Source of the DNA: Bodo saltans
Taxonomy: Eukaryota > Euglenozoa > Kinetoplastea > Eubodonida > Bodonidae
NCBI GenBank assembly: GCA_001460835.1
Contig: CYKH01000266.1
Coordinates: forward strand, 1 to 22,577
Length of the DNA stretch: 22,577 bases
Reading direction: 5' to 3'
Position numbers and translations under genes: made by a program. Positions 2,630 through 22,577 of this stretch are shown here, in pieces (positions within the stretch are counted from its first letter, which is position 1; every line of letters begins with the position of its first letter). Below the pieces are notes generated by a model. That model made no database searches. It was not told the origin of the DNA and saw only the letters and a program-made list of their open reading frames with translations.

Positions 2630-5600
2630 ATGGCGCAGTGCATTCACTTTCACACCGTGATCGTTGTGTTGATCATGCTCTTGTTCATTGCGGAAGAAGT
2701 ACATTCCGTTGGCGCGCACACAAAAACAGTCAGCAGAACGGAAGAACAAAGCAAGAGTGTATCATCTTCAAGCAGCTTCTCTTTTGAGCCTTCTGTTGAA
2801 GTCACCCCTTCGCGCAGTAGAAGTCAGGCATCACGCTCGAGTAGCAGAAACGCAACCATCACTCAAAGCTCTTCTCAACCAATGAAAAGTTCGTCTGTTT
2901 CTGGCACTCCACCCCCTGGAAGCTGGAGCGTTTCTTCCTCTAGTTCTAACATCAGAGCGTCCGTCACCGCAAGCTCGTCTGGAGGCGGTCTAAGCGTCAC
3001 CGACACAGCGTCTCAGCATCACACACACTCAACACGAAGTCCATCGTCCACGGAAAGTCGCGACGCCTCTAAGAGTATCTCAGGGAGCAACTCTCTTTCC
3101 ATCCGCATCCCCACATCAACGGCCTCGAATGTTGCGTCTCAGACGGTCAGCAGTTCGAATCTTCCCGCCTCGGCAACACGATCCGTCACCATCTCTAGCA
3201 GTACCTCCACGTCGCAGTCGAGCACCCGGCCAAGTGTTAGTATTTCCCGTTCCAGAGACGTGTCTATGAGCGATAGCATGACGACAACACGATCGCAAGT
3301 ATCCCGCACCGGTTCTCGAACCCTTCGATTGACGCCAACGTCATCGATTAGTGCTCCATGGTCGATGACGATCAGCAAGTCGAGGAACTCGATGACCGCC
3401 TCTGTGTCGCAAGCGCTGTCGCTCACCCGCACCACTTCAGTCTCGCGCTCCTACCCGACGCAAAGCAAAACAGATGCCACCGCCAGTGGTGGAGGGAGTT
3501 CAGTTTCTGCGACCGCCTCCGCGGGAGGTATGAGCACTAGTCATACTTCTAGCAGTACCACTTCGTTCAGCCCCTCGTTTACGATCTACCACCCGTACGT
3601 TACCCCCACCCGGTCCATCGTGCCTAGCTTCACGGAATCTTCCACCCAGAGTGCCACCGACTTCGGCTCCTCTACATTCAGTATCTCAGAATCTAAGGTA
3701 GCAAGCAACAGTTTCTCGTCGACCGCGACCGCGTCCCTCACGTTCGCCTCACCCTCTCATGATGACTCTGCCAGTCGTTCGCCTTCCAACAGCAGCTCTC
3801 CCTCTGAGTCGGATTCGCTTCTCATCACGATGTCCTACATCACTGCAACGACCACAATCTCAGACAGCAAAGAGATCACCGTCACCATCGCAAGTGGGAC
3901 TCTCTCGCACATCACCGCATCGCGTGATGCATCTTCCTCAGAAACATCGACCCCATCCCAGACCGCCTCACTTACCTACACGGGAGAGTTGACAGAATCA
4001 ACCTCCATTTCACGAACAGTTGCGTCGCCATCCATTTCGTTCTCTCCAGAAGCACGATCCATGTCAAGAACAGTGTCTGCTAACGACACTTCGTTATCGA
4101 CATCATACAGTCTATCACCTTCATCGTCGGTGTCCTCCAACATCTCGCGCACGCTCGCCACTGTGTCGGTGTCCGCATCACCGTCACCCTCCAGCGACGC
4201 TTCTAGGACCCGTAGTGCTGGAACACCAACATTCGGTAGTGTCACGCTGCTTGCAAGCGTCACGAGGCAATCGGCAACCCCTACGCTCACCGACGACAGG
4301 ACGTTTTCTTCGACGCCAACAAGGACTATTTTCGCCAAGACGCCGACGTTTTCTCTGTCGAGGGATGGGCGGACGTATTCTTTCAGCAACTCATTTCAGC
4401 AATCCGTCACGTATCGCACGCTGTCGCCAACGGCTGCCATGAGAACCGGCACCCACACCGCCTCTGTCACCCCAACAACAACGACCTCAACCACGCCAAC
4501 GGCCTCCGTACCGCCGATACCCACTCCCACGTCAACACGCACGCAAACTCCGAGCAACGACATCACAGCGACACCAGGTACTAGCAGTCCATCGTTGTCT
4601 TCTACGCAGACCATCTCAATGGCAGCGTCAAAGACGATGACCAATTCCATCCCAACGCCAACAATCTCAATCGGTACCCCCACCACTAACCTGACGGGAT
4701 CTCGGAGGAGCGCGACATTGTCTGTATCCTCAACAACCTCGGACTCCTCCACAGCATTTCCCTCGTCGAGCAGGAGCTTCACACAAGGACATTCCAATTC
4801 TGTGTCCGCCTCGCCTGCTCTATCGGCTACGGTTAAGACGTCGTCCTTTACCTTCAAACTCTCGAACTCCCTTTTCATATCCGTCACGCTGCACTCCATG
4901 TCTCCTACATCGTCGTGGTCTAACACACCAACGTTATCAGGAAATCCTTCGGATTCCGTTTCTATCAATACGACAGACTCGGAGTCCCAAGCGGTCTCGT
5001 TCACTGCGACGGCACCGTCTCCAACACGAGATGTATCTTCTTCAGCTTCGGCGGCGTCGTGGACAGGCGAGCTTTCGCAATCTGTTACGATCACGTCGCA
5101 GTTGACGCAGACCATTGAATCCAAAAGCACTTCGTACTCAATCACTAAAACTGTTACGAAAGAGTCTTCAGTGAGCACAAGCCGATCTCGAGCAACACAA
5201 AGCACCACCCGCACATGCTCTGAAGGGCACCCGTCGAGCTCAATCACGGCGTCCTCGAGTACTTCACTGACACGCAGCGCCTCTTCGACAAACTCACTCA
5301 GCGTTAGCAGGTCATCATCGTCTACTTTATCCCGCAGTGACTCTGCCGGATCGCTTACGGATGCTGCCTCTCAGTCGGAATCGAATACGCCAACGATTAC
5401 GTTAAGTGCGTCGAGGATGAGCATCACCTTCGAGGTCACATCCACAAAGTCTGCTTCGAGAACCATCGGTTCACAGACAACTTCTGCTAGTGGCGGGTAC
5501 CAAACAAAGACGGATTCGATCACATCGACGTTATCCTCATCGTTCTCGTCCGAGCCCTCACTGACTGAGCCATCGTCGAGCATAGAGCCTACTTCAACAG

Positions 5601-8479
5601 GTACAGTGACGCCCACCATCACGCCCCCTCCGACACCGACCTTTACGAATGCATCATCTGACACAATGACGTTGTCACTGACCACAGACCGTACCAAAGC
5701 GACATGGTCGGTGGCAGTATCCCCAACCCATCCATCGGTCTCAACGTCAACGACACTTGTTGTGTCTCAATCAGCAGGCAGCCTGAGCATCCCATTGACC
5801 TCAAGCAAAACGGGTTCTCTCACAACAACGATCAATTTTACAGACTCTCAGCTGGACAATAGCACGTCATCCACCTGGACGATTCATCCAACCGTTTCAT
5901 ACATGTCCCAGACAATCACGACAACATTGTCAGAGAACTCACAGACTAGTGAGATCTCCGCGTCAGACTCTAGATCACTCACGCTATCAGCGCAGTATGC
6001 CTCTGTTTCGTCGACGCATTCGCCCACGCAACAGTCATCGACAACACGTACCATCACGCCGCCACCAACCCCGTCACCCTCTTCGCAGCTGTCGATGTCT
6101 AGCACGCTGGTTCCCTCGCGAACTGCGACAATTACCCCACCGCCAACACCAACGCCAACGTTAGCGTACACCGTCTCACTGTCCGCCAGCGCTCACATCA
6201 CGCAGGCCTCAGTGTCGCTTTCACATTCCGCTAACGGCTCATCTGTGACACAGTCACATTCACCTTCCTTTGTCGCACTTTCCTCCACCGTTACGATCTC
6301 ACAGAATGGGACAGAGACAGTCATGAATTCAGAGTCGCGTGAAGGTCCCACTTTCTCGCATAGCGTCGTCGGCACCAACACATCGACACGATCCCAGCCA
6401 AGTCGCTCTGAGACGCCCTCTCAACTGGTGAACACAGGCACTGTTAGCGTGAGTCTTGTGGAGACTGTTACGGTCTCTCGGCAACTGACGTCGGCACCAT
6501 TTGCGACTCGAAGTGTGACGCCAACTCCGCATCATACAAAATCGATTGGCAGTATGTCGCTGACCCCATCGCCCACTCCATCCACGTCGGTGTTTGCCAC
6601 AAACACACAATCTCGACAGACACACACGCGCCCCTCGGCGACGTGGAGCGGTAATGGTGATGCCGGCGCCAACCATCAGCGCATATCTCAAACGATCACT
6701 GCAGATAAGACGTTGGCAACCGAAACCATCTCCGCCACCATAGCAGCCTCCGCAACGAATCCCTATCTCTCCCAATCCTCTTCAGTCACACCAACGTACG
6801 GCACAATCACCGAAACGGCCCCAACGTTCACGATCCCCTTCTACGGCACTGATGGAGACTCGACGGTAACCTCGGTCCATTCAGTTCGCCTCAATGGTAC
6901 CATGTGGAGCGACGTGACCACCGCCGCATTGCGTCCCACACTGATGGTGGAAGTGCAGTCAGACCTCGCAGATGCGTTACACTTACCATTAGATCGTATC
7001 GTTGTGAACTCCCTTCGTGTCGGTTCTCTTATTGTGGAGTTCACTGTGACACGCAACTCCTCGCAGTACCTTGCCGACAATTCGATCAATCTGCTGGTTG
7101 GTGCAAGCACGTTTGCCAGTACCGCTGTTCTGTACCACGTGGTAACAAACACGACAGACCAGATAGAAAGAATTCGTCCAGCTCCCGGAGTGACGTTAGC
7201 ATCCTCCACGCCTCCCGCAGATCCTGCGGGGGGCTGCCATGGGTCTTGCCTTGTCATTGTGGCCGCGGCATGTGGTGGAGGAGTGGCACTGTTTCTTATC
7301 GCGCTCATTATCGTCATTGCGCGTTACCGGCGACGACGACAAGCGCAAACATCATCAAACGGGGCGCCAACACGATGGTGGTGTCTCTGCTGTCCTTGTT
7401 GTTGTGGTTCACAAGAACCTGAGCGAACTGCAGAGAAAAAACGCTCTGTGACCTTTGTCGAAAACCCAATCCGACAACATAGCCCGTTCACAACAAACAA
7501 CAAAAACAGCTCTTCACCCAAGAAGCTCGCCCCCAATAAAAATACTGCCGTTGTCCCTCCCCCGACATTTCGATTCCCAGGAGCAAACCGAAACCGCTAT
7601 GTCAACGGAGTTGTCATGAAAGATTACTACTATGACCCTGAGGACTACGAAGAAAAGGATGACAAGTGCGCAGAAGATCCCTACGACTACGACGCAGGGC
7701 ACAATGGGGGCTACGATGATGCAGATTATCCCCACGCGTACATCGTTGAAAAAAAAAATCGAAACCGGTATGTAAACGCAGTTGTCATGAAAGATTACTA
7801 CTATGACCCTGAAGACTACGAAGAAAAGGATGACAAGTGTGCAGAAGATCCGTACTACGAGGAGGACACTGGGCACAATGGAGGCTACGATGATGCAGAT
7901 TATCCCCACGCGTACATCGTTGAAATCGGCGGCCACTCTATGGAAGAACAGGATGTTAGCTGGGATCGACCGCACGAAGCTTCACCGACAAAACAACACA
8001 CAAAAAGAAAACACACACGTAAGCAGCAGCACTCGCAGCGTGAGGCTCTTTATCATCATTTGCCACGTCGTCGAGCAGCTCACTACGAACCTGCAGAGCA
8101 ATACTTCGAATCGGTTTCGTCAGAGAATGAATTGGGAGACGATGATTATGAGTGGGTGTACGACGAGTGCATCCCAGCTGGCGCCTCAGCAACTATCGTC
8201 CTTGGAGAGGAATCGTTCAATACGCCGCACCTCCCACCGCCGCCACCTGCGCCTCCACGCATCGAAGGTTCGCCGACAACACTAGTAACAGCACCAGCAC
8301 GTCACCCAAGTGCTGACGTGGGACCTCCTCGACCGCAGCTAGAGTCGCTTCTGCTGCCACCGACTGGAATGCAGCCACCGAAACCGACAAAAGATGCTTC
8401 AGTCATCATGAGGATGGCGTCGTCAAGTGGCGGAGAAACGACACAACATGTTTCAGATATCGAACCGGTCTTTGAGTGA
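2630..8479 (+). CDS. Mucin-like type I transmembrane surface protein with SEA-like domain
   Basis: Complete frame of 1949 residues. The ATG at 2630 starts a clear signal peptide: hydrophobic core VIVVLIMLLFIAEEV, cleavage likely near residues 26-30. Residues from about 30 to 1410 form a Ser/Thr-rich stalk, almost free of Cys, with three copies of a TITPPPTP motif (near 5620, 6055 and 6130). The SEA-like domain (6866-7143) has GSLIV at residues 1465-1469. CHGSC follows, then a transmembrane helix (about 7250-7318) with AAACGGG and an Arg-rich stop-transfer. A CLCCPCCC cluster (7382-7405) is a likely S-acylation site. The tail carries VENPIR (7457-7474), an internal 57-residue duplication, YEWVYDEC (8147-8170) and a Pro-rich end. 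Heavy O-glycosylation is expected but inferred. It is a paralogue of the genes on either side. A specific function is not recognisable. Confidence 0.92.
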   Translation: MAQCIHFHTVIVVLIMLLFIAEEVHSVGAHTKTVSRTEEQSKSVSSSSSFSFEPSVEVTPSRSRSQASRSSSRNATITQSSSQPMKSSSVSGTPPPGSWSVSSSSSNIRASVTASSSGGGLSVTDTASQHHTHSTRSPSSTESRDASKSISGSNSLSIRIPTSTASNVASQTVSSSNLPASATRSVTISSSTSTSQSSTRPSVSISRSRDVSMSDSMTTTRSQVSRTGSRTLRLTPTSSISAPWSMTISKSRNSMTASVSQALSLTRTTSVSRSYPTQSKTDATASGGGSSVSATASAGGMSTSHTSSSTTSFSPSFTIYHPYVTPTRSIVPSFTESSTQSATDFGSSTFSISESKVASNSFSSTATASLTFASPSHDDSASRSPSNSSSPSESDSLLITMSYITATTTISDSKEITVTIASGTLSHITASRDASSSETSTPSQTASLTYTGELTESTSISRTVASPSISFSPEARSMSRTVSANDTSLSTSYSLSPSSSVSSNISRTLATVSVSASPSPSSDASRTRSAGTPTFGSVTLLASVTRQSATPTLTDDRTFSSTPTRTIFAKTPTFSLSRDGRTYSFSNSFQQSVTYRTLSPTAAMRTGTHTASVTPTTTTSTTPTASVPPIPTPTSTRTQTPSNDITATPGTSSPSLSSTQTISMAASKTMTNSIPTPTISIGTPTTNLTGSRRSATLSVSSTTSDSSTAFPSSSRSFTQGHSNSVSASPALSATVKTSSFTFKLSNSLFISVTLHSMSPTSSWSNTPTLSGNPSDSVSINTTDSESQAVSFTATAPSPTRDVSSSASAASWTGELSQSVTITSQLTQTIESKSTSYSITKTVTKESSVSTSRSRATQSTTRTCSEGHPSSSITASSSTSLTRSASSTNSLSVSRSSSSTLSRSDSAGSLTDAASQSESNTPTITLSASRMSITFEVTSTKSASRTIGSQTTSASGGYQTKTDSITSTLSSSFSSEPSLTEPSSSIEPTSTGTVTPTITPPPTPTFTNASSDTMTLSLTTDRTKATWSVAVSPTHPSVSTSTTLVVSQSAGSLSIPLTSSKTGSLTTTINFTDSQLDNSTSSTWTIHPTVSYMSQTITTTLSENSQTSEISASDSRSLTLSAQYASVSSTHSPTQQSSTTRTITPPPTPSPSSQLSMSSTLVPSRTATITPPPTPTPTLAYTVSLSASAHITQASVSLSHSANGSSVTQSHSPSFVALSSTVTISQNGTETVMNSESREGPTFSHSVVGTNTSTRSQPSRSETPSQLVNTGTVSVSLVETVTVSRQLTSAPFATRSVTPTPHHTKSIGSMSLTPSPTPSTSVFATNTQSRQTHTRPSATWSGNGDAGANHQRISQTITADKTLATETISATIAASATNPYLSQSSSVTPTYGTITETAPTFTIPFYGTDGDSTVTSVHSVRLNGTMWSDVTTAALRPTLMVEVQSDLADALHLPLDRIVVNSLRVGSLIVEFTVTRNSSQYLADNSINLLVGASTFASTAVLYHVVTNTTDQIERIRPAPGVTLASSTPPADPAGGCHGSCLVIVAAACGGGVALFLIALIIVIARYRRRRQAQTSSNGAPTRWWCLCCPCCCGSQEPERTAEKKRSVTFVENPIRQHSPFTTNNKNSSSPKKLAPNKNTAVVPPPTFRFPGANRNRYVNGVVMKDYYYDPEDYEEKDDKCAEDPYDYDAGHNGGYDDADYPHAYIVEKKNRNRYVNAVVMKDYYYDPEDYEEKDDKCAEDPYYEEDTGHNGGYDDADYPHAYIVEIGGHSMEEQDVSWDRPHEASPTKQHTKRKHTRKQQHSQREALYHHLPRRRAAHYEPAEQYFESVSSENELGDDDYEWVYDECIPAGASATIVLGEESFNTPHLPPPPPAPPRIEGSPTTLVTAPARHPSADVGPPRPQLESLLLPPTGMQPPKPTKDASVIMRMASSSGGETTQHVSDIEPVFE
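6866..7143 (+). other. SEA-like domain of gene 2 with GSLIV motif
   Basis: This segment aligns by eye over its whole length with the gene 1 domain: SVRLNG, Trp, an amphipathic segment ending LHLPLDRI, SLRVGSLIV (GSLIV at 7022-7036), TVTRNSSQ-LADN, and a final strand near VLYHVV. The strand-helix-strand-strand-helix-strand pattern and the G-S in the turn before strand three match the SEA plan. Autoproteolysis is predicted, not shown. Confidence 0.6.
7583..7926 (+). repeat. In-frame tandem duplication in the gene 2 cytoplasmic tail
   Basis: Two adjacent copies (about 7583-7753 and 7754-7926) encode a Tyr/Asp-rich module with NRNRYVN, VVMKDYYYDPEDYEEKDD and YPHAYIVE. The offset is 171 bases at the start and 174 at the end, because copy 2 carries one extra codon, so the frame is kept. 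Differences are few and partly synonymous. The tyrosines in acidic context could be phosphorylation or sorting signals, which is inference. Confidence 0.9.
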
Positions 8480-9422: not shown

Positions 9423-12400
9423 ATGCCGCACCTGGCGCCTGCAAGAGCTGCGAGCAAAACGTTCGTTCATGCGTTATTATTCTCCTTCGTTTGCATTGTT
9501 GAGTTGAACGTACTCTTTTGTGCAAGTTCAACCACCACTATTCTTCCATCACCGAGCAGGAGCATCACACCTTCCTCAGCATCCAAAACTGCATCCACTT
9601 CACGTTCGACTTCTAGCTCCAACGATAGAACGCATTCGGTAACGTGGACAAGTGAAAGCGGTACGAGAACGCATTCCGTCACGCGTTCTTCAAGCAACAC
9701 AGCCGCCTCCAACACCAAAAGTATCACTGGATCAACGAGCCAAAGCACGACACGGTTGGTGAGTTCATCGAAGTCACTCTCAACCTCACGCACATCAAGC
9801 GGACCTTCGCAAAGCGGAAGCGTCACATCGTCAGTGTCTACGAGTACAACCTCCACGGGAAGCCCTTCGTTCTCCGAGTCCCAGAGTTTTCCAGTGACGC
9901 CTTCGCTATCACTCTCAAGCAGCGGCTCACCTTCACAATCGACTTCACTCTCCATCACCAAATCATTGAGCTCGACGACTTCTGCTAGTGCCTCCACCAC
10001 CTCCTCCGCGAGCAAGAGTGCCTCGCTCTCACAATCCTCGTCGCTCACCCTTTCCCTCAATGCTTCCACTAGCACTATATCTATTCACGTCAGTGTATCG
10101 GTGACACATTCAAGCAGCAGCAGCAGCTCTCAAACAGTCTCCCTGAAATCATCGCATAGCCTTTCGAACTCAGTGAGTTCCTCCATGTCTCACAGAGGCT
10201 CATGGACGGCCTCTACAAGTATCAGTCAGTCGCCCACAAGGAGTGGATCGGTGACATCTTCATTGTCCCAAAGTACGTCAACATCAAATACGGTAAGTAC
10301 GACAGAAACAAACAGTAAGACAACGACTAGCTCTGCATCCGAGAGTCGAACCCTCTCACTGACGTCAACGCAAAGTATCAGTCAAAGCCCAACCACTTCA
10401 TCCTCACGATCAAGGACAATATCGCCGAGTGATAGCGATGCGCACACAATCTCTCGAAGCGTCAGCTCCAGTTTGTCGAAGAGCGGATCGCAATCGACTA
10501 GCGTCTCATTCAGCGCAAGTGCGTCGCCGAGTGCGTCGTCCACCATGACGGTTTCGGCTTCGGTCTCGCATTCTGAGACTGAGAGTTTTTCCACTTCTAC
10601 GTCGATGTCCTCCAGCCCTACCAGTAGTGCCTCAGCAACAGCAACTCAAACCTACTCGCTCAGCCCTTCCGAATCCCGCACGCTCACTGTTTCTCCAACT
10701 CTGTCCGACTCGTCGAGCAGTTCTCGATCACTCTCGCTCAGCTCATCGGCCACGAGAAGCTCCACATACTCCACCAGCCAGAGCGCATCATCTAGCCTCT
10801 CACTATCAGCATCATCTTCTGTAAGTGGCGGTACCGCGAGTACATCTCAAACAGCATCATTGTCACAGACAGTATCTTCCTCGTTGAGTACCTCAATTAC
10901 ATTCAGCAACTCTATGTCTTGGACGGTCAGCGCTAGTGTGTCGAAGAGCCTGAGTACAACCGGGACTATGTCAACCTCAACCTCCTTGACTTCGTCAGTA
11001 TCCACGTCGCTTTCATTGTCGAGATCCTTCAGCAGCTCAGCCTCGTTGACCTCCTCGTGGAGCTTGACAACGAGCCCCTCGTTCACGTTGAGCTCTAGTT
11101 CAACAACATCAGTCTCACAATCGCTCAGTGCATCAAAAACATACTTAGACTCGTCGAGTGCATCTTCTTCGGTCACAGATTCATCAAGTGCTACATTGTC
11201 AGCGTCGGTAAGTGTGACCTTCACGTGGAGTGTCAGCTCATCGTTCAGTCCTTCCCAGTCAACATCCAAAACAATGAGCAATACTATGAGCGATTCGCAA
11301 ACGCAATCTCAATCGTGGAGCTTGAGCGCAACTCGGACAGCAAGCATCACCGAATCGTCCTCTTCTTCCATTTCGTTCAGCTCCTCCGCATCGATGTCGG
11401 CTTCACTTTCGAGCAGCGGAAGCCCTAGTGTCTCGTTGACTTCATCGGACAGTGCAAGTCGCTCCCTATCGGCTACCTTTAGCTCAACCAACACGTATTC
11501 CACTTCCTTCAGCGAGAGCATGTCGCTTTCTGATAGTAGAAGCTCAACCCTGTCATTTAGTATCTCCAGTTCAACTTCAGTGAGTCGCACTATCTCGTCG
11601 ACGCTCTCACTCTCGATGAGCACCTCGCTCAGTGAAAGCGGGTCGCCTTCCGCATCGCAAACAAGCAGCTCAAGCAACAGCCATAGCAGTAGCACCACAG
11701 CGTCTGCGTCTCTTACGACGAGCGTGTCCTCGTCAGTCACATGGTCTCTTTCCAACACAGCAAGCAGCACACGGTCATTGACTGCATCTGAGACTACAAC
11801 CAGCAGCATCACCAGAACACACAGCCTGAGCGATACCGTTTCGTTGACCGCATCGGCCTCAAGAAGCAATTCCCTGACCCTTACCGATTCGATTAGCGCA
11901 AGCGCATCGATCTCAGGCACGAGCACTGCGTCCATGTCGTTGAGTCACACCACGTCATTATCCCTGTCATCGTCGATTAGCCACTCTCTTTCCATCAGCA
12001 GCAGTGGCAGTGATAGCCTCACGGCCTCATTCTCCTCGACCTCATCGTACTCCTGGACAACATCTCCAAGCAGATCGGAAAGCGCTACAGATTCGTTCAG
12101 CATAAGCCTCTCTGCGTCATCGACTCCAACGGCAACTGTATCCCGTACACTTTCCACGAGTGAAACATCTTCTGGGACAATCACGCCGACGGTCTCCAGT
12201 TCTGAATCGTCCACGCTTTCACGAAGCGCAACTGTTACGTTGAGCCCCACTACCAGTGCCTCTACTTCCTCCTCGGCTTCAAGCTCCTCAACTGGCACGT
12301 CATCGAGCTCATTCACCCTCACTTCATCGGCAACGCAGACTGGCTCGTCGAGTGAGACCAAAGCAAGTTCGGCAAGTCCATCACTTTCGCTGACCTTCTC

Positions 12401-15400
12401 TGAATCATCTAGTCACAGTGCTTCTGTCTCCTTTTCCTTCAGTGGGAGTGCCTCAGGATCGAGCACAGCATCAGCAACGCATTCACAATCGACGAGTGAT
12501 ACACTCAGCGCGTCAGGTAGCGTTTCTCGCTCAGCAACGCAGACAACATCTCTCACTTCCTCGCTCACCATCAGCAGGAGTTTCACAAGTTCGTTAAGCT
12601 TGAGTTCATCTTGGAGCGGCACCACGAGTGGCACTGCGTCACTCTCGGTGACCTTCTCTGAATCGACTAGTCGCAGCGCTTCTGTGTCCTCCTCCCTCAG
12701 CGGGAGTGGTTCGGGATCGAGCACAGCAACGACATCGCATTCACTGTCGACGAGTGATACACTCAGCACGTCAGGTAGCGTTTCTCGCTCCGCAACGTTG
12801 ACCACATCCCTTACTTCATCACCAAGCGTCAGCAGGAGTGTCAGTAGCTCGTCCAGCTTGAGTTCATCTTGGAGCAGCACCATAAGTGGCTCTGCGTCTT
12901 TTTCGATGACCTCAACTTCGTCATTAAGTCAAAGCTCGTCTGGGTCCCACTCCTTCAGCGGGAGTATTTCAGACTCTGGCACAGCGTCTGCGTCAAATAC
13001 ATTGTCTGTGAGCTATTCACCGAGCGCGTCAACGAGCGCGTCTCGCACCGCAACGTTGACGCAATCTCTCACTTCATCGCTCACCATCAGCAGGAGTTTC
13101 ACAAGCTCGTTAAGCGTGAGTTCATCTTGGAGCGGCACCGCGAGTGGCACCGTGACTCTCTCGGCGACCTTCTCTACATCGTCAAGTCATAGCGCGTCTG
13201 TTTCCTATTCCCTCAGTGGGAGTATTTCAGACTCTGGCACAGCGTCTGCGTCAAATACATTGTCTGTGAGCTATTCACCGAGCGCGTCAACGAGCGCGTC
13301 TCGCACCGCAACGTTGACGCAATCTCTCACTTCATCGCTCACCATCAGCAGGAGTTTCACAAGCTCGTTAAGCGTGAGTTCATCTTGGAGCGGCACCACA
13401 AGTGGTTCGGCATCGAGCTCACCCTCACCAACATCGTCGTTGTCATCTTCCTTCACAGCATCGGCTTCATGCACCACAACTCCGTCTCAAAGTGGCACAA
13501 TGACAAGCACCAACTCTGACACAGCAACAGGAAGTAGTAGCAGTAGCATCTCCTCCTCGATGAGCAGAAGTGATTCCACATCGGCTTCCAGTACAACGTC
13601 CCCCAGCGTCACGAGCTCCGCGACGACAACTTATTCCACGACGGTGTCCACTACTCCTTCGATGAGTCGCTCCGCTTCCTTCACCGATTCAACCTCGCTC
13701 TCCCATACTTCGTCCTCCACAGCTTCTTTTTCCAAAAGTGCAAGTGTGTCGTCATCTTTGACATTTTCGGGAAGCAGAACGTCTACTGCCAGTGAATCTC
13801 CATCTGAAACGAACACCGTGTCTTTCAGCGGCAGTGCCACAATGTCAATATCACTAAGCAGGTCGTTATCGTCCTCATGGACGACCACGACAACTAGCTC
13901 AGTCTCAACGAGCGTGAGCGGGACATTCAGTCCTACAGCGTCGGCGTCCAGTACGACGTCCGTGTCTTTCAGTCCTTCCGTCACCAAAAGCACGAGCGCA
14001 ACAACAACTCAATCTCCCTCCGAATCGTTTTCACGCTCGAGTTCTGAAACTTCGTCAGCATCTGCAACGTCAACTCCGTCGACGAGTGACTCAATGTCGT
14101 CAAGTATTTCGAGGAGCACGTCAACGTCATTGAGCATGTCCGTCTCATTCTCTCCGTCGGCTTCGAGCAGCTTCACAGCATCGCAATCCACCAGTGCCTC
14201 AATCTCCACGTCACCTTCGTCAAGTTTGAGTGTGAGCTACAGTCATTCCGGATCGAATTCAGAGTCCTTCAGCTCATCGTGGAGTATCACCTGGAGCAAC
14301 TCAGAATCTGCTTCCAATACAAACAGCTTCTCTCCATCGGCGTCAGAATCTTTGTCAAGCTCCACAAGCAACAGTCACACGACAACCGCATCCCTCAGCA
14401 ATTCCGGAACCACAACGTCGACGATGAGCGTAAGCGCTTCACTTTCTGACTCCGTCAGTGCAACCTCCTCGGCTTCAGCAACAGCATCGTCAACATTATC
14501 TGCTTCCACCTCAGGCACATCGACCTCAAGCGCCACAAAAACAGCGTCGCTGACTCCCACAACGAGTTTGTCTCTGTCTACAAGCTCAAGCAGGACAATT
14601 AGTGAGAGTGGCAGCGTGACAGGAACAAGCTCCCTAAGCGAAACAATGTCAACCTCCCGAACTGGTTCATTGACTACTTCAGCAAGTGACACCACTTCCT
14701 TTTCTTCATCACTGAGCGCAAGTGTCTCCTCGAGTCTCTCCCGTAGCGCCAGTAGCACAATCACTTCGTCTGCTAGTACCACCTCCTCAAAATCGACGTC
14801 GATCACCAATTCATTGAGCGATTCGAGTACCTGGAGCAGCACCACTTCTGTAACCTTGAGCAACACAGTTTCCACATCCATCTCTGCGTCCCCTTCGTTG
14901 ACAGCCTCGCCCAGTGTGAGCAGCTCCAGCAGTGCATCGACGAGCAGAAGTGACACCTCGTCCGACTCACCGACGACAACTTCATCTGGCACAAGTACCT
15001 CGAGCAAATCGTTGTCGTCGACAGACTCCGCCTCGGTCTCCTCAACCTTGTCAATATCTTCGTCAGGCACCACTTCAGCAACCGTCTCGCTCTCTAGCAC
15101 GTCAAGTGTTTCACTATCCGCTACCAACAGCATCTCTGCAAGTTTCTCTCCGACAACAAGTGCCACAGCTACCAAGAGCACATCTCTCTCCATCAGTAGC
15201 ACAACCTCAGCAACGCGCACCGCATCCCTTAGCAGCACTGCGTCGCCCAGTGCGTCATTCAGCAGCAGCAGTACCAGCTCAGAGTCAATGTCGCTATCAT
15301 TTTCAGTCTCCATGAGCGCTTCTCGAAGTGCATCGGCCACGGAAAGTGCGTCTTCGTCCCACTCGGCATCTTTAAGCACATCTCTCAGCTCGTCGAACAC

Positions 15401-17822
15401 GTTCTCACAATCAACGAGCAGCAGTGCAACTGAAACAGCATCGCACAGCGACACCATCTCCACCTCCCAATCATTCAGCGAAACGGCAACACACTCACAC
15501 TCCCAAAGCGAGTCGTCATCGCTCACAACAACTGTGTCCCTTACTCCCACATCGTCGAGCTCACCGAGTCTCACCTTCACAGAGAGTCGCACCTCCTCGG
15601 CAAGCACGTCACTCTCACACTCAGCATCAGCTAGCGCCACCGCTAGTTCCACAAGTACTGCGTCATATTCAACAAGTAGGAGTAGGACTGACACAACGAG
15701 CAACACCGAATCGATGTCTTTCTCACTATCGCAGTCATTTTCAGCTACGACAACGAGCTCGTTATCCCTCACAGCGAGCAACTCAGTCACTTCGACGGTC
15801 TCCCCAAGTGCAACGAGAAGTGTCACCGTCACCTTCAGTTCAAGCAGCACGTGGACTACTTCCCAAAGCACAACTTCGTCTCCATCCTTGACTACGAGTG
15901 GCTCAGCAACAATCACAGCATCCCCAAGTGACAGCGCCTCGATGACGCAAAGCAAGTCTACCTCCAGCTCCTGGAGCCTCACTGCCTCAACTACGGTTTC
16001 CGCATCGTCTAGTACCTCAGCAACTTCGACAGCATCATCGTCGCCTTCACAGTCAGAAAGTCCCACGCTGAGCGCGAGCAGCAGCGCTACGACCTCTGAG
16101 TCACAATCTTCAACGTCTTCGATGTCGTACTCAACGACTCTCTCAGCGTCTCGAAGCAGTTCGTTGTCGTTCACTGGGTCTGATAGCATCAGTGACAGTG
16201 GCTCAGTGACCTTCAGTGCGAGCACTTCAGTTTCACTTTCGAAGAGCGTCAGCTTCTCTGCATCTTTGAGTGCTAGCAACTCTGAATCAAGTTCGAACTC
16301 TCTCAGCTGGAGTGCCTCCCCCACAACGTCCACCTCGGACTCCAATAGCGCCACGGTATCCAACACAGGTACTCTCTCGCCCACCACCAGTGGCACGCCG
16401 TCAACGACATTCACACACAGCACGACCGCGTCGACTTCGCGCAGCATCACATTCTCACCGTCACTTTCAGCAACGAATTCCGCGTCAAGCTCAACCTCTA
16501 TGTCGATGACCAGCAGCCCTTCCGTTTCTACCTCAAGTTCTCTCAGTGCATCTCATTCGCTTTCCGTCACTGCGAGCGCTTCGAAGACCGACACTGAAAG
16601 TGTATCAGAAAGTTTCTCACCAACAGTTTCTGAATCACCTTCAACAACTACATCTTGGAGTTCCACTGCTACGTTTTCTCTTACGTCGTCGTACTCTGCT
16701 ACATCATCGTTCAGCGAGTCCGCAACACTCAGCGTGAGTGCCACAAACTCCGATTCAATCAGTCAGTCTGCGAGCATGTCTCAAAGCGCGACAGCGTCAG
16801 GGACAGTGTCAACTTCAGTCAGTGCAACTCAATCGGTGAGCATTTCATACAGCACAAGTGGCTCCCTTTCCGCAAGCAGCTCCATCTCCGAAACAAACTC
16901 TCAAAGCGGTAGTGTGTCAACCTCACCCTCTGCATCTGGATCACCGACCTTCACGAAAGTTGCTACGCCGACGTCTTCCATATCGTTTAGCACCACACTG
17001 TCGAGTTCTGGTAGCGAAAGCACTTCCAGCACAGGGAGTTCATCTTTCTCTGGGTCGATTTCCGCATCTCACTCAGAAAGTGATTCCCAAACGACGTCCA
17101 CTTCAATCTCTATGTCGAACAGCGCGACCTATTCATGGAGTGTGTCGGCTTCCTCGACTTTCAGCATGTCGTTTTCACTGTCTCCAACCTCTTCCGCTAC
17201 GCCAACCTCAAGCGGCTCTCCCACTGGCACTGAAACGCCGTCGACCTCCAACTCCGCATCACCGTCAACCTCCTCAAGTCCAAGTGCAACTGCGTCTGCT
17301 TCTCCGACTGTGTCTCTGAGCCCATCAGAATCCTCTTCCCCGTCGGTCACCGTATCCCCATCACCGAGCGCATCCGCATCACCAACCGTAAGCAAGAGCC
17401 CCACCATCACGAACTCCCCATCTCCTTCCAGAAGCCTCTCACCGTCATCGTCCGACAGCGTCAGCATCACCATCAGCCTCACCGACATGGTGACGTATTC
17501 TGGTGAAACGTTTACGCCTACCAACACCAGCAGTCCGATGAATACCACGACAGTCACCGTCTCACCCGACACGATCACCGATGCACGAAGTGCCAGCGAG
17601 TCTTCATCGATCTCTCAAACTGCTTCTTGCACCACGAGTCACTCTTCATCCATTTCGTTGTCCCTTTCGATCTCACCGTCTCACCGGACACGATCACCGA
17701 TGCACGAAGCGCCAGCGAGTCTTCATCGATCTCTCAAACTGCTTCGTTTACCACGAGTCACTCTTCATCCATTTCTTTGTCCCTTTCGAATTCTAGCTCT
17801 TCCAGTACGAGTGAGTCTGTGA
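9423..17822 (+). CDS. Gene 3 N-terminal segment: signal peptide and Ser/Thr stalk
   Basis: Open frame of 2799 residues from ATG 9423. The N-terminus has a hydrophobic core (VHALLFSFVCIVELNVLFCA, about residues 15-34) typical of a signal peptide. Nearly everything after residue 35 is Ser/Thr-rich, by eye about half or more Ser, with stretches alternating S-x-S-x. Only rare Cys and occasional Trp (often S-W-S or S-W-T) break the pattern. From about 17673 the frame is wrong: the last 50 or so residues lose the Ser bias (Arg/Leu/Pro/His appear) and stop at 17820-17822, while the Ser/Thr reading continues in another frame. The true end is therefore not 17822. Extensive O-glycosylation and a rod-like shape are inferred from composition. 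Confidence 0.85.
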   Translation: MPHLAPARAASKTFVHALLFSFVCIVELNVLFCASSTTTILPSPSRSITPSSASKTASTSRSTSSSNDRTHSVTWTSESGTRTHSVTRSSSNTAASNTKSITGSTSQSTTRLVSSSKSLSTSRTSSGPSQSGSVTSSVSTSTTSTGSPSFSESQSFPVTPSLSLSSSGSPSQSTSLSITKSLSSTTSASASTTSSASKSASLSQSSSLTLSLNASTSTISIHVSVSVTHSSSSSSSQTVSLKSSHSLSNSVSSSMSHRGSWTASTSISQSPTRSGSVTSSLSQSTSTSNTVSTTETNSKTTTSSASESRTLSLTSTQSISQSPTTSSSRSRTISPSDSDAHTISRSVSSSLSKSGSQSTSVSFSASASPSASSTMTVSASVSHSETESFSTSTSMSSSPTSSASATATQTYSLSPSESRTLTVSPTLSDSSSSSRSLSLSSSATRSSTYSTSQSASSSLSLSASSSVSGGTASTSQTASLSQTVSSSLSTSITFSNSMSWTVSASVSKSLSTTGTMSTSTSLTSSVSTSLSLSRSFSSSASLTSSWSLTTSPSFTLSSSSTTSVSQSLSASKTYLDSSSASSSVTDSSSATLSASVSVTFTWSVSSSFSPSQSTSKTMSNTMSDSQTQSQSWSLSATRTASITESSSSSISFSSSASMSASLSSSGSPSVSLTSSDSASRSLSATFSSTNTYSTSFSESMSLSDSRSSTLSFSISSSTSVSRTISSTLSLSMSTSLSESGSPSASQTSSSSNSHSSSTTASASLTTSVSSSVTWSLSNTASSTRSLTASETTTSSITRTHSLSDTVSLTASASRSNSLTLTDSISASASISGTSTASMSLSHTTSLSLSSSISHSLSISSSGSDSLTASFSSTSSYSWTTSPSRSESATDSFSISLSASSTPTATVSRTLSTSETSSGTITPTVSSSESSTLSRSATVTLSPTTSASTSSSASSSSTGTSSSSFTLTSSATQTGSSSETKASSASPSLSLTFSESSSHSASVSFSFSGSASGSSTASATHSQSTSDTLSASGSVSRSATQTTSLTSSLTISRSFTSSLSLSSSWSGTTSGTASLSVTFSESTSRSASVSSSLSGSGSGSSTATTSHSLSTSDTLSTSGSVSRSATLTTSLTSSPSVSRSVSSSSSLSSSWSSTISGSASFSMTSTSSLSQSSSGSHSFSGSISDSGTASASNTLSVSYSPSASTSASRTATLTQSLTSSLTISRSFTSSLSVSSSWSGTASGTVTLSATFSTSSSHSASVSYSLSGSISDSGTASASNTLSVSYSPSASTSASRTATLTQSLTSSLTISRSFTSSLSVSSSWSGTTSGSASSSPSPTSSLSSSFTASASCTTTPSQSGTMTSTNSDTATGSSSSSISSSMSRSDSTSASSTTSPSVTSSATTTYSTTVSTTPSMSRSASFTDSTSLSHTSSSTASFSKSASVSSSLTFSGSRTSTASESPSETNTVSFSGSATMSISLSRSLSSSWTTTTTSSVSTSVSGTFSPTASASSTTSVSFSPSVTKSTSATTTQSPSESFSRSSSETSSASATSTPSTSDSMSSSISRSTSTSLSMSVSFSPSASSSFTASQSTSASISTSPSSSLSVSYSHSGSNSESFSSSWSITWSNSESASNTNSFSPSASESLSSSTSNSHTTTASLSNSGTTTSTMSVSASLSDSVSATSSASATASSTLSASTSGTSTSSATKTASLTPTTSLSLSTSSSRTISESGSVTGTSSLSETMSTSRTGSLTTSASDTTSFSSSLSASVSSSLSRSASSTITSSASTTSSKSTSITNSLSDSSTWSSTTSVTLSNTVSTSISASPSLTASPSVSSSSSASTSRSDTSSDSPTTTSSGTSTSSKSLSSTDSASVSSTLSISSSGTTSATVSLSSTSSVSLSATNSISASFSPTTSATATKSTSLSISSTTSATRTASLSSTASPSASFSSSSTSSESMSLSFSVSMSASRSASATESASSSHSASLSTSLSSSNTFSQSTSSSATETASHSDTISTSQSFSETATHSHSQSESSSLTTTVSLTPTSSSSPSLTFTESRTSSASTSLSHSASASATASSTSTASYSTSRSRTDTTSNTESMSFSLSQSFSATTTSSLSLTASNSVTSTVSPSATRSVTVTFSSSSTWTTSQSTTSSPSLTTSGSATITASPSDSASMTQSKSTSSSWSLTASTTVSASSSTSATSTASSSPSQSESPTLSASSSATTSESQSSTSSMSYSTTLSASRSSSLSFTGSDSISDSGSVTFSASTSVSLSKSVSFSASLSASNSESSSNSLSWSASPTTSTSDSNSATVSNTGTLSPTTSGTPSTTFTHSTTASTSRSITFSPSLSATNSASSSTSMSMTSSPSVSTSSSLSASHSLSVTASASKTDTESVSESFSPTVSESPSTTTSWSSTATFSLTSSYSATSSFSESATLSVSATNSDSISQSASMSQSATASGTVSTSVSATQSVSISYSTSGSLSASSSISETNSQSGSVSTSPSASGSPTFTKVATPTSSISFSTTLSSSGSESTSSTGSSSFSGSISASHSESDSQTTSTSISMSNSATYSWSVSASSTFSMSFSLSPTSSATPTSSGSPTGTETPSTSNSASPSTSSSPSATASASPTVSLSPSESSSPSVTVSPSPSASASPTVSKSPTITNSPSPSRSLSPSSSDSVSITISLTDMVTYSGETFTPTNTSSPMNTTTVTVSPDTITDARSASESSSISQTASCTTSHSSSISLSLSISPSHRTRSPMHEAPASLHRSLKLLRLPRVTLHPFLCPFRILALPVRVSL
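12376..13407 (+). repeat. Four tandem 258-bp (86-residue) stalk repeats
   Basis: The anchor TTCATCTTGGAGC recurs at 12605, 12863, 13121 and 13379, each exactly 258 bases apart, and other landmarks keep the same spacing (for example 12381 and 12639). Each unit encodes a Ser/Thr segment ending in a Trp motif such as SSSWSGT. The third and fourth copies are identical over 180 bases (12960-13139 and 13218-13397), which points to recent duplication or conversion, while the first two are more diverged. Confidence 0.93.
17554..17791 (+). repeat. Frame-breaking 119-bp tandem duplication
   Basis: Copy 1 is 17554-17672 and copy 2 is 17673-17791. They match except for about six bases, for example CCCGAC/CCGGAC, and a Cys codon in copy 1 where copy 2 has Phe. 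The unit is not a multiple of three, so the stalk frame moves by two bases. With one copy collapsed, the frame from 9423 continues into the Ser/Thr frame that runs on to 18400. The cause may be a real duplication, or two alleles or overlapping contigs placed in series. Confidence 0.93.
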
Positions 17823-18400
17823 CATTGACCTTCAGTGTGAGCGACTCCGATTCGAATTCGGTGACTGCGTCTCTTTCCAAAACGTCTTCGCTATCCTCAT
17901 CCGAAAGTTTCTCGTTCTCCGTTTCCCATAGCAGTTCACAGTCAGCATCGGGATCTCCAACGGCAACATGGACGCCATCGACAACGTTTTCATCCACTGT
18001 ATCTTTTAGCGCCACGCGCTCAAGCAGCTGGACGTCGTCAGAAACTCTGACTGCGACTTCAACGCGCTCAGTATCACTCTCCACCAGTACCAGTGGCTCG
18101 GAAAGTTTCTCAACGAGTAAGTCCGACACAACAAGCGACTCTCAGTCAAACTCTGTTTCGCTCACATCCAGTGATTCTGTCACGCAGAGTAGTTCTCGTT
18201 CGTCATCGGGATCTATAACGGCATCATGGACGCCATCGCTGTCGTTGACTACAACTTTATCTTACAGTGCAACACGCTCAAATAGTTGGACAACGTCGGA
18301 AACTCTGACTGGGACCTCAACACGCTCAGAATCGCTTACCAGCAGTGCCAGTGGCTCGGAAAGTTTCTCGAAGAGTGACTCCGACACAACAAGCGACTCA
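17673..18400 (+). CDS. Gene 3 stalk continuation after the first frameshift
   Basis: In the frame of 17627 the sequence is strongly Ser/Thr-rich from copy 2 of the 119-bp duplication to about 18400. It then becomes Arg/Cys-rich and meets TAA at 18497. The ATG at 17627 is out of the coding register of copy 1 and gives 15 or so non-stalk residues, so it is not a real start. This segment is the continuation of the 9423 frame and lies in the same frame as the SEA-like domain downstream. It contains two copies of a 258-bp repeat. Confidence 0.8.
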
Positions 18401-18451
18401 GTCAGTTTGAGACGAAGGAAGTGTAGGTCACTAAGACACTGCGTCTCGTCG
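17885..18451 (+). repeat. Second 258-bp-period stalk repeat; third copy begins as non-reversed complement
   Basis: Anchors CATCGGGATCT (17946 and 18204) and GGCTCGGAAAGTTTCTC (18095 and 18353) are each 258 bases apart, giving copies at about 17885-18142 and 18143-18400. A third copy starts in exact register at 18401 but only after base-by-base complementing; similarity then holds for about 51 bases. The unit length equals that of the array at 12376-13407, although the sequences differ. Confidence 0.85.
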
Positions 18452-18850
18452 AGTCAAAGCTGGAGCCGCAGCGGAAGATACAGTCCTTGTGACAGGTAAA
18501 GGCGGTGGGGCAGCGTCAGCAAGTCACAGTGCGGCAGTTCATCAAACTGCGATGACGAGTGTGTTAGGTCGTGCAGCAGTAAGAGACGTAGGTGTAGTTG
18601 GTGGCTGTCAAGGAGTCTCTCAGAGAGTCCGTCACACAGGCTCAGGTCGTCGTTGAGAATAAGGCTATGACTTAGCTGAAGCCGCTCACGGAGAATATCT
18701 CAGAGTTCATCTGAGACGTTCTCGGTGTCGCTGAGCGAAAGTGCGACCTCAATTATCTCCCAATCGTTCTCAGGATCATCATCGGCCTGGTAGTCGTGTT
18801 GTAGCAGCGAGAGAAAAAGCCTTAGTCTTTAAGAAAGAGCAAGGGACAGA
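18401..18850 (+). other. Corrupted stalk segment with two complemented, non-reversed blocks
   Basis: Read as given, the frame shared by both flanks contains five stops, no Thr codon in its first 290 or so bases, and many AGA, AGG, TGT, TGC and TGG codons. If 18401 to about 18697 and about 18788 to 18850 are complemented in place without reversal, both become stop-free Ser/Thr-rich sequence. The middle part (about 18698-18787) is normal as written and becomes nonsense when complemented. Block 1 as complemented, CAGTCAAACTCTGCT, matches CAGTCAAACTCTGTT at 18143 one repeat period upstream. A hand count over 18421-18720 gives about 63 C and 96 G, while nearby stalk has similar or more C than G. 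Confidence 0.85.
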
Positions 18851-20665
18851 GTCTCTAGCTCCTCCTCCGTCATAGCCTCGTCAACAATGAGTACCACCGC
18901 CACCAACGATGTGAGCGCAACGGTATCTATCTCGAAGAGCGGATCTCAGACTCAAAAATCCGCCACGATGGACTTGACGAACACTAACTCTCCCATTCCT
19001 ACTGACACCGTGTCGAACGGGGTCTCAAACTCCGAGACCATGTCATCGTCGCTGACAGCCTCGCCCACAACAAGTGGTTCGTCTACTGTAGACCTATCAC
19101 GATCACAATCACTGAGTTCGACAGTAGATCTGTCGCGTAGTCGCACCATCACAGATGAATACTCCGTCACCAACTCTCAAACAGTCACCCTTAGTGACTC
19201 TCTGGGAACCACGACACAAGAACAAACGGAGACGGTGACGCTCAACCAAACCACCTCCATTGCCGTGTCAGCGACGCCCCGCAATCACACTTCTACCGTC
19301 TCACTGAAAATTTCAGACTCCTTGACGGAAACGTTTAGCCAAAGCATTGCGACGAGGACAAAAACGCAACAACTCTTCTCGCCTGAAGACTCCGTTATCA
19401 TCAGCTCGGAATTTATGCTTCGTATTAACGGGACGAAGTGGGAAGTGGCGGTCCAACGGAACGTGACGTACGTACTTGCCATCATTCGTTCCATCATTGC
19501 CGTGCGTTTAGGATTGCCAACGTTTTTTGTGGTCGTTCAGAATCCTCGAATTGGCAGTCTCATTGTAGATGTGATCGTCTACCGCAACGGCTCGTACTCC
19601 ATGTCTGACAGTGTCATCCTTGCCGCATTTCACATCGGCCCATATCGCGACGCGAACTCGTCCTTAACGCCACCCTTGAATCTCACAGATCTGCAGATTG
19701 TTTACACAAACCTCACCAACTCAACAGAGTATGTTGAGCTTGTTGGGTCGGCATTACTTCGAGGCGCACCAACATCGATCTCGTTGGAGTCCTGGTCGTG
19801 CGATACGTCTACGTGCATCCCTGCGATCATTGCAGGTGTGTCCGTTGGTATTATCGTGATAGGGGGTGTTGTTGGTATTTTTCTCGTGCGGCGCCGACGA
19901 CGCCTGGCCAAGCGCGAAAAGGCTTTGAAGTCCCTCCGTCGCTGGTACGACCCAACAACAACGACAATGACACCCAATGGCACTCCGCGAGCAGGTACAC
20001 CGCATCTTCAGAGGTCATCGACGCCTCGTCGCTCTACGCAACGCCGTGCAACTCCCCTAGGCGGAGCCAAACGTAACGGCCCCCTTCCTCCAACGCATGC
20101 CGATCTTGTCGATCCCTTCGAGTCCGATGCGTTCTGGTTTGGTAACCAAGTTCACCGTGGCACATCGCCAACGGCAGAAGACGTCGAGGAGCCGAGTGCT
20201 TGGCCAGTGGGCAGAGCAACATCTCCGATAACCTCTTTTGCTGGTGGTAGCGACGCTTCTGAAGTTCAAATTGCAACGTCCACTCACCTCGCATCTCAAC
20301 GCAATTATCTCAGCTCTGCAGTTGACAACACATCAGTTCAAGAAGACGAGGATGAGGCCATTAACAAGCATCACCATGAGCGGTATCACCGCGATCCTTT
20401 TTCAGACGCCCCAGCTGAGGCGATGAAGTCACTTCCCTGGTACCTCCAGCAGCCCACCAACACCACCAGTCGAAGCAGCCGTGAGCGCCACCATCCATTT
20501 TCATCCAGAAGCAACGCCACCAACATTCCTGTAGTCGATGATGTGCTGACGGATGAAGGACTGCCGGCCATCGGCGGTCACTGGTGGGAATCCAGCAGCA
20601 GCGGAAGCAGCAACAGCAATGGCAGCAATAATGCCTCCAAGCCACATTCTCAGCTCTGCAGTTGA
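18851..20665 (+). CDS. Gene 3 distal stalk, SEA-like domain, transmembrane helix and first part of tail
   Basis: This is the same frame as 17673-18400. The ATG at 18887 is an internal Met inside Ser/Thr-rich sequence without a signal peptide, so it is probably not a start. Features in order: distal stalk; SEA-like domain (about 19391-19713) with LRINGTKW and GSLIV (19553-19567); many N-glycosylation sequons (NGT, NVT, NGS, NSS, NLT, NST); a C-x4-C element (19799-19816); transmembrane helix (19817-19888); five Arg; then a basic tail with Thr/Pro and Arg, a DPFESDAFWF segment and DPFSDAPAEAMKSLPWY. It stops at 20663-20665 only because the adjacent duplication shifts the frame; the last residues (QLCS) are out-of-frame reading of copy 2. 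Confidence 0.82.
   Translation, partial: VSSSSSVIASSTMSTTATNDVSATVSISKSGSQTQKSATMDLTNTNSPIPTDTVSNGVSNSETMSSSLTASPTTSGSSTVDLSRSQSLSSTVDLSRSRTITDEYSVTNSQTVTLSDSLGTTTQEQTETVTLNQTTSIAVSATPRNHTSTVSLKISDSLTETFSQSIATRTKTQQLFSPEDSVIISSEFMLRINGTKWEVAVQRNVTYVLAIIRSIIAVRLGLPTFFVVVQNPRIGSLIVDVIVYRNGSYSMSDSVILAAFHIGPYRDANSSLTPPLNLTDLQIVYTNLTNSTEYVELVGSALLRGAPTSISLESWSCDTSTCIPAIIAGVSVGIIVIGGVVGIFLVRRRRRLAKREKALKSLRRWYDPTTTTMTPNGTPRAGTPHLQRSSTPRRSTQRRATPLGGAKRNGPLPPTHADLVDPFESDAFWFGNQVHRGTSPTAEDVEEPSAWPVGRATSPITSFAGGSDASEVQIATSTHLASQRNYLSSAVDNTSVQEDEDEAINKHHHERYHRDPFSDAPAEAMKSLPWYLQQPTNTTSRSSRERHHPFSSRSNATNIPVVDDVLTDEGLPAIGGHWWESSSSGSSNSNGSNNASKPHSQLCS
19391..19713 (+). other. SEA-like domain of gene 3
   Basis: It aligns by eye with the domains of genes 1 and 2: LRINGTKW for VRLNGTMW, LGLP for LHLP, PRIGSLIVDVIVYRNGS for LRVGSLIVEFTVTRNSS, and SMSDSVI for LADNSIN. 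It is more diverged and carries an extra stretch (about 25 residues, with NSS and NLT) before the last strand. Conservation of GSLIV in all three paralogues while much else varies suggests a functional constraint. Confidence 0.55.
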
Positions 20666-20975
20666 CAACACATCAGTTCAAGAAGACGAGGATGAGGCCA
20701 TTAACAAACATCACCATGAGCGATATCACCGCGATCCTTTTTCAGACGCCCCTGCTGAGGCGATGAAGTCACTTCCCTGGTACCTCCAGCAGGCCACCAA
20801 CGCCACCAGTCGTAGCAGCCGTGAGCGCCACCATCCATTTTCATCCAGAAGCAACGCCAACAACATTCCTGTAGTGGATGATGTACTAACGGATGAAGGA
20901 TTGCCGGCCATCAGCGGCCACTGGTGGGAATCCAGCAGCAGCAGCAGTGGCAGCAATAATGCCTCCAAACCACAA
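20308..20975 (+). repeat. Frame-breaking 340/328-bp tandem duplication in gene 3 tail
   Basis: Copy 1 is 20308-20647 and copy 2 is 20648 to about 20975. Both begin TCTCAGCTCTGCAGTTGAC. The offset is 340 at the start and 328 at the end because copy 2 lacks 12 bases in an AGC-rich stretch (about 20590-20625). Several substitutions separate them, many synonymous. Each copy encodes HHHERYHRDPFSDAPAEAMK and WYLQQ in its own frame, but copy 2 is shifted by one base relative to copy 1. Synonymous divergence means both copies have been under selection, as alleles or as paralogous exon copies. Confidence 0.93.
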
Positions 20976-22577
20976 AAAGAAGACCACTCACCTTACTACG
21001 AAGAAGGAGTCGAAGCACAAGGCAAGAGAAAGCCACCCCCGCCGCCTCCCCCTCCTCCAGCAGCACCTGCGGCGGTGCTGGAGCAGTATCATGCACCTTT
21101 CGGTAGAAGTGCTGCAATTCGTAGGCCTTCACCTTCGCCACCTCCACGCCGAACCCAACCACAACAGTCACCATTGCCACCGCCCCCAACAGCCAGAAAG
21201 TCGGCTCCATTGCAAACCACCTTAAAGTCGTCCTCAGTCATTGCTGCACCCATGAAGAAGAGCACGGCAGCTCCATCTCCACCCGTACAGTGCAGCTCTG
21301 GAAGCTCCTCTCGTGTCCTTGCACCATCGATTGCAAAGAAAGTCCTGCAGTATGAGCAACGCCAAGATGTGCCTTGGTATGCCCGCCCGACATCCCCTAC
21401 ATCGGCTGTTGTAGTGGCGTCAGCCCCTCCAGCTGCGAAAAAGAAACCCCAACAACAACCCTTGTCAAAGGCTTCTGCTAGTCTTGTAGGGCCTCGTGAA
21501 GCTCCTGTTGCACAGCCGCTCCTGCCATCGGAGGCTGCTGCTCCTCTTTCACATCGCAACGGTATTCCTGCTACAGGAACGAAACCGCTAAAGCTCAGAG
21601 TTGTGATTCCACCCAGCCACTTCGATGACGACGATTACGGCGGTCATCACAGCAAACAAGGCAAAACTGTCTTTGAGCGGCGAGATTCTTCGTCTACGAT
21701 GTCGTCTGCGGCCTCCTGGGGCTCTCGCGGTGACTTCGATGCAATGGGCCTTGACGATGACATTCCCTTGTACAAACCACCGAAGGCAGTTGCAGTCGCA
21801 CGACGATCTCCACCGAAATCGGCTCCACTTGCGCAGCAGCACCGGCGCTCTGGAATAAAATCCATAGCGTCTTCGGTGTTACCACGCGTGTCAACGACGA
21901 CAGACACAACCACGCATCATCAGCATGCCAAGTACGACAAGAACGATGGGCAGTGGTTTCACTCTGCAATGGGCTTCGATGACCCAATCGAGCTTAGTGC
22001 CGATCCCTCGTTTCTCTTCTCGTCAGGAAGTGGCGAAGATTTTGCAAAGGATGCAGGACCTCTCAGCAAACATCACTCCGATGAATTGTTGTTGTCACCA
22101 AGGAAGGAAGCACCACCGCTTGCGTTAGCATCGAACTCTTCCTCCTTTTTAGGTATGCTGCCTTCGAGATCCCGAAGAGTGGTGCTGCCGGCTGACGATG
22201 TAGACGTCAGGGTCGTCACAGCTAGTGCAGAACGAGAAGACGATGATGATGAGTCCTCCTCATCTCACGCCTCATGGGGCTCTATTCCGATTCTTCTTTC
22301 ACCGTACGGCTCCCAGCACGCCCCGCAACTATTTCCTGCTATGAGTGGGTACAGTGTGCAGCTGCCCCCTGCGCTAGCCGCAGCACAATTGTCAGGGAGA
22401 GGCCACGGCCATGAAGAACCCAGTCCCATTCGGCACGCGGTCGTTGAATTTGGTGATGCTGCAACTGAATTCCTAGACAATGATCCGTGGAACTCAGCGC
22501 TGTTTGATTCACTGGGCAACCAGCGTCGCGCAAATGACGGCGACGATGGCGGTGGGTTCGGTGATGCTTCGTTGTGG
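20649..22577 (+). CDS. Gene 3 cytoplasmic tail continuation, open at window end
   Basis: This frame starts inside copy 2 of the duplication and stays open for 643 codons to the last base with no stop. An ATG at 20631 exists in this frame, but the segment is best read as the tail of the protein encoded upstream. It begins with the same histidine-rich DPFSDAP module. A run of nine Pro (about 21035-21061) and further Pro-rich stretches follow (about 21130-21190). Then come basic segments with Ala/Pro and acidic clusters (DDDDYGG near 21625, EDDDDES near 22240), a repeated S-x-A-SWGS motif (near 21711 and 22270) and SPIRH near 22424. Pro-rich stretches may bind SH3, WW or profilin-type partners (inference). 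The YEWVY-E-C motif of the paralogues is not reached before the edge. Confidence 0.85.

Follow-up and report, generated by a model that had tools for sequence, protein, structure and literature searches.

In a Ser/Thr-rich gene of Bodo saltans, a stretch of about 300 bases reads as the base-by-base complement of the expected gene strand but in the same 5'-3' order, which raises the question of whether the DNA itself or the sequence record has been changed. Copying and recombination join DNA strands antiparallel, and an inverted piece accordingly reads as the reverse complement. We know of no rearrangement that gives a complement in place, because polymerases copy antiparallel. Here, we asked whether the in-place complement holds, where it begins and ends, and which explanation accounts for it. 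The window, i.e., the whole stretch of DNA analyzed, is 22,577 bases long and corresponds exactly to one contig of a genome of which 29,294,288 bases in 934 contigs were searched (G+C content about 52%). The features relevant to the affected gene and to the first complemented block (block 1) are as follows.

9423 to 17822, plus strand: Ser/Thr-rich open frame of 2799 amino acids, the upstream part of the affected gene
18142 to 18209, plus strand: repeat copy in normal writing, 258 bases upstream of block 1, which the complemented block 1 matches
18284 to 18399, plus strand: left flank of block 1, in the 258-base register as written (23 to 26 of 29 bases per segment), with 26 of 29 matching complemented from 18400
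18400 to 18697, plus strand: block 1, 298 bases within the Ser/Thr-rich coding region, complemented in place and not reversed
18887 to 20665, plus strand: downstream open frame, in frame with both complemented blocks (block 2 is described below) once these are complemented

Comparison of positions 18401-18451 with 18143-18193 gave 2 of 51 identical positions as written, 45 of 51 after complementing, 20 of 51 after reverse-complementing, and 13 of 51 after reversal. The first two counts are exactly those of the original prediction, and the third, set against 45 of 51, bears out its claim of an in-place complement rather than an inversion. Extended without gaps, the alignment of 18400-18467 with 18142-18209 contains 57 of 68 identities complemented and 5 of 68 as written. 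Moving from 18284 in steps of 29 bases at an offset of 258 bases, the as-written identities were 24, 23, 26, and 26 up to 18399 and then 1 and 3, while the complemented identities were 2, 2, 1, and 1 and then 26 and 23. Block 1 is therefore contiguous with regular sequence, with 26 of 29 identities as written in the last segment before 18400 and 26 of 29 complemented in the next, and the switch falls on one base boundary, 18399/18400, without insertion or deletion. This alignment places the left edge at 18400 and not at 18401 as originally proposed. The as-written identity left of the junction (86%; 18300-18404 versus 18042-18148) and the complemented identity to its right (84%; 18400-18467 versus 18142-18209) are about equal, and block 1 therefore looks like a continuation of the repeat copy in its left flank. 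Deeper in block 1, the complemented identity to the repeat drops to 6 to 19 of 29 bases because the repeat copies diverge, and at 18661-18689 the as-written count exceeds the complemented one (14 versus 6 per 29 bases). Past the repeat match, the complement assignment rests on codons and not on the repeat.

The complement match of block 1 reached an extended score of 40.5, compared to 13.5 for the next best in the window (exact seeds of 12). In the sample of 225,014 non-N bases, which includes the window, the best complement match besides that of block 1 scored 21.5 (exact seeds of 14, low-complexity words excluded), and blocks drawn at random from the codons of the same gene scored at most 19.5 in 300 trials. 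A better alignment of the block as written to another locus had been named as grounds for giving up the complement reading; block 1 as written had a match only to itself in 29.3 Mb of the genome at E values up to 10, in a search that skipped very common words and scored only the best candidates, and it had no match in a plasmid collection.

Based on codons, the complement reading extends through the whole of block 1. As originally described, 18401-18697 contains in-frame stops at 18497, 18668, and 18677 as written, all three of which are lost on complementing, and Ser/Thr-rich coding in the flanking frame is regained in the form of 99 stop-free codons. As written, the frame of block 1 is still Ser-rich, with Arg and Cys. 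A single frame runs from 17627 across both blocks into the open frame at 18887-20665; length is thus conserved, as an in-place change requires. The codon log-likelihood gain for the complement of block 1 was +110.4 over 99 codons. In the same gene upstream, the corresponding gain had a mean of −119.4 (standard deviation 16.0, maximum −77.6), and the complement lost in all 2612 windows of 98 codons; these control windows, like those of the relabelling comparison, come from the training stretch 9423-17550, outside of which both blocks lie. Flanks not used in training also favored the sequence as written, i.e., 18143-18400 (−85.2 over 86 codons), 18698-18784 (−23.8), and 18872-18960 (−34.5 over 29 codons).

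We compared all 24 relabellings of the four bases. The complement was the best of the 24 for the repeat match, for 18470-18697, and for block 2, so that one base-exchange rule, which is one criterion for so-called swinger DNA, describes each block. For the repeat match, the complement had 57 of 68 identities and the runner-up (A->T, C->A, G->C, T->G), which was also second on the other two tests, 33 of 68. In 18470-18697, i.e., beyond the repeat match, the complement scored −271 and the sequence as written −359, while genuine pieces of this gene scored −265 ± 7. Finally, with each of three switch costs, a two-state path from 17807 to 19400 contained two complemented segments, 18410-18697 and 18788-18850; at the one switch cost applied to the upstream control region, there were no complemented segments in 2709 codons.

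The second of these segments went unnoticed in the original prediction. Two further features are therefore added.

18698 to 18786, plus strand: normally written stretch between blocks 1 and 2, in the same frame and Ser/Thr-rich as written (codon score over 18698-18784 given above)
about 18787 to 18852, plus strand: block 2, about 63 to 67 bases, also complemented in place, with edges uncertain by a few bases (18788-18850 in the two-state path)

Block 2 contains two in-frame stops as written, and the gain in the two-state path was +26.4 over 21 codons. Complemented, it scored −77 and as written −103.5, with genuine pieces at −73 ± 3.8. No repeat copy supports block 2. It was the third-lowest 60-base window in one of two Markov models and outside the 14 lowest in the other, that of the Ser-rich gene alone; it ranked about 21st of 92 and was not singled out in the coding-filtered scan of the whole sample; and a search of the genome with its complement returned no match and was uninformative. 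Block 2 thus behaves like block 1 with weaker support, which comes from one Markov model, the codon path, and the relabelling test. The complement in place, its exact register where block 1 begins, and the kept frame are observed features of this locus, as is, less strongly, block 2.

To look for recurrence, we scanned the window and 27 other stretches, comprising 225,014 non-N bases or about 0.8% of the genome searched. Two stretches (L007 and L015) consist entirely of N; L004 (121 bases), L001, L002, and L022 were left out of the scans, except that L004 was used in one scan for training only. One composition scan (z scores at 60, 150, and 290 bases) covered only stretches longer than 800 letters, and an earlier scan covered fewer stretches. 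Among the 28 stretches, the match in the window was the only complement match scoring at least 24, and no further clear case of an in-place complement was found in the 225,014 non-N bases. With a filter for coding-like sequence, which reduced 684 segments to 92, block 1 ranked first, and no other segment had a comparable score without also having a normal frame as written.

The composition and codon scans by themselves would not prove the block, because several had deeper minima elsewhere. In the scan of the window, for which the first of two Markov models was trained on 9423-18300 alone, five other places lay below the block with the model of the Ser-rich gene alone (the lowest, 21207-21266, at −20.8 versus −16.6 for the block). 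In the z-score scan, the block was eighth at 60 bases (z = −3.4, with L008 6196-6255 at −4.3), seventh at 150 bases, and at 290 bases the deepest of all (z = −4.6, followed by −3.5). A model trained without the window placed L008 (−7.3) and L020 (−7.6) lower than the block (−6.6), and in another scan L010 8573-8692 was lower (−16.8 versus −13.8). In the window and z-score scans, the models were trained without 18350-18900 but with the other places, and the as-written score of the block is therefore somewhat lower than under equal treatment. The codon scan gave L021 (76.2) and L026 (61.5) higher scores than the block (56.2) among places with stop-free flanks, and L010, L019, L020, and L029 (92.7 to 56.9) among those with a stop in one flank. 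The complement readings and flanks of L021 and L026 are not coding-like. Of the deep-scoring places inspected, those in L008 fall between long open frames, and those in L020 and L003 are within open frames that are intact. Proof of the complement rests on the repeat match, the comparison of 24 relabellings, and the codon control from the same gene.

Several explanations can be weighed against these data. An ordinary inversion would, like the event seen here, involve the bases of the other strand, but it would leave a reverse complement, which does not match: the identity was 20 of 51 and the best local score in 15001-18300 was 25 versus 81 for the complement. A copy pasted from another locus should match that locus as written, and block 1 as written matches only itself in the 29.3 Mb searched. 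Inversion, plain reversal (13 of 51), and as-written homology were thus rejected within the limits of that search, and we regard an inversion or a pasted copy as extremely improbable. Chance or codon coincidence has to be considered because complementing turns the Ser codons TCA/TCG into AGT/AGC and vice versa. Ser-rich genes therefore stay Ser-rich on complementing, and this property of the genetic code is visible in the as-written frame of block 1. Such a coincidence would nevertheless have to produce a score of 40.5 when none of the 300 random blocks from the same gene exceeded 19.5, and would have to do so in a gene in which the complement loses in every upstream window as well as in the untrained flanks on either side (18143-18400 and 18872-18960). 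We give this explanation next to no weight.

A real exchange of strands in vivo, with complementary bases in the same 5'-3' order, would require that strands be copied in parallel or that a polymerase exchange all four bases, and to our knowledge neither process is established. DNA complemented in place and contiguous with regular sequence has already been published under the name swinger DNA, with the rule A<->T+C<->G (PMC4942731), and the suggestion that the block, if real, would be an undescribed kind of rearrangement is therefore not quite right. The bijective exchange and the abrupt switch agree with that description, and in Seligmann's reports (PMC4942731 and PMC7027195), swinger DNA shares with block 1 the identical relabelling, the chimera of regular and transformed sequence, and the sharp junction. 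It differs in being claimed as a polymerase product made in vivo, whereas the blocks here are known from one draft contig and are fully explained by a handling error. According to the author's own account, swinger DNA up to 2016 had been detected only under A<->T+C<->G (PMC4942731). This is the sole rule that a forgotten reversal or a forgotten complement yields; because a half-done reverse complement can give no other, we would treat cases of this type, and the present block among them, as handling errors until they are shown to be real in reads. That the block is heritable nuclear DNA with strands exchanged without reversal, whether by parallel-stranded copying or by a base-swapping mode of a polymerase, seems to us hardly credible.

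The complemented blocks are almost certainly an artefact, so that the original ranking of a record or assembly error as the leading explanation is also ours. Specifically, we propose, with a probability of roughly 0.93, that the record is wrong in two pieces of a Ser/Thr-rich, surface-protein-like gene, each inserted with half of a reverse-complement step missing. The exact base-wise complement, the unchanged length, the abrupt edge without indel, and the kept frame are all shared with what an orientation-handling error in assembly or gap filling would leave. Such an error probably occurred during gap filling or scaffolding: a piece from the minus strand, likely gap-filled, would have been reversed but not complemented when the piece or the whole contig was flipped, and the outcome of this slip on the plus strand would be a complement in place with unchanged length. 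Routines for complementing can be case-sensitive. A possible route, which we hold to be somewhat less than an even bet, is that lower-case bases, either gap-filled or soft-masked, passed through a reverse-complement routine translating only upper-case letters, which would leave several in-register blocks with exact edges per flipped contig in surroundings that were flipped correctly.

The published B. saltans draft comprises 39.9 Mb in 2,402 scaffolds with an N50 of 31.5 kb and was built from short-read data in Velvet; SSPACE was used for joining, GapFiller and IMAGE for closing gaps, iCORN for correction, and REAPR for splitting (PMC4728078). IMAGE is described as written in Perl (PMC2884544), and a term search of the GapFiller and IMAGE papers (PMC3446322 and PMC2884544) found nothing on the proposed orientation step. 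Likewise, among the matches listed in a literature search, at the level of titles and the beginnings of abstracts, there was no precedent for an assembly block that is complemented and not reversed. Runs of N, which may be gaps, were present in 8 of the 18 10-kb stretches sampled first. If a software fault were systematic, one might expect it to show elsewhere; the sample, about 0.8% of the genome, yielded no further affected contig. An isolated error from outside the assembly, i.e., during manual editing, during submission, or in the copy of the record analyzed, would agree with the one affected place in the sample, as a manual edit would be isolated. Two blocks that differ in length and are separated by normal sequence look more like the automatic handling of separate pieces, and we consider an outside error rather unlikely.

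As an artefact of orientation handling, the blocks break the model of a very long surface-protein-like gene and add false stops to it. They also escape ordinary searches, which try only a sequence and its reverse complement. The locus illustrates cleanly how DNA complemented in place can get into databases and has a bearing on reports of swinger DNA; if found to be true in reads, it would contradict the rule that DNA is copied antiparallel.

The affected gene also contains two direct duplications. One of 119 bases at 17554-17789 (111 of 117 compared bases identical) lies near the end of the open frame 9423-17822 and is possibly an unmerged contig overlap. A 340-base direct duplication at 20308-20961 (294 of 314 identical) lies where the open frame 18887-20665 ends and is overlapped by the open frame 20553-22577; in a search of the same genome, no other place was listed for it, and the match of the two copies to each other was unlisted as well. 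Neither length is a multiple of three, and the position of each duplication near a break in an open frame suggests that the assembly is poor in this part of the contig, although real duplications are possible. Within the same gene, 12381-13499 contains a tandem repeat array of four 258-base copies with 81% matches, and this period equals the distance between the repeat copies close to block 1. An open frame of 691 codons on the minus strand at 14375-16450, antisense to the Ser/Thr-rich gene, is probably a by-product of codon bias. Two of the four neighboring proteins tested each contain a FAZ1 conserved domain (PF23398), a sign of a kinetoplastid source; they are encoded at 2-1687 (cut by the contig start) and 2630-8476.
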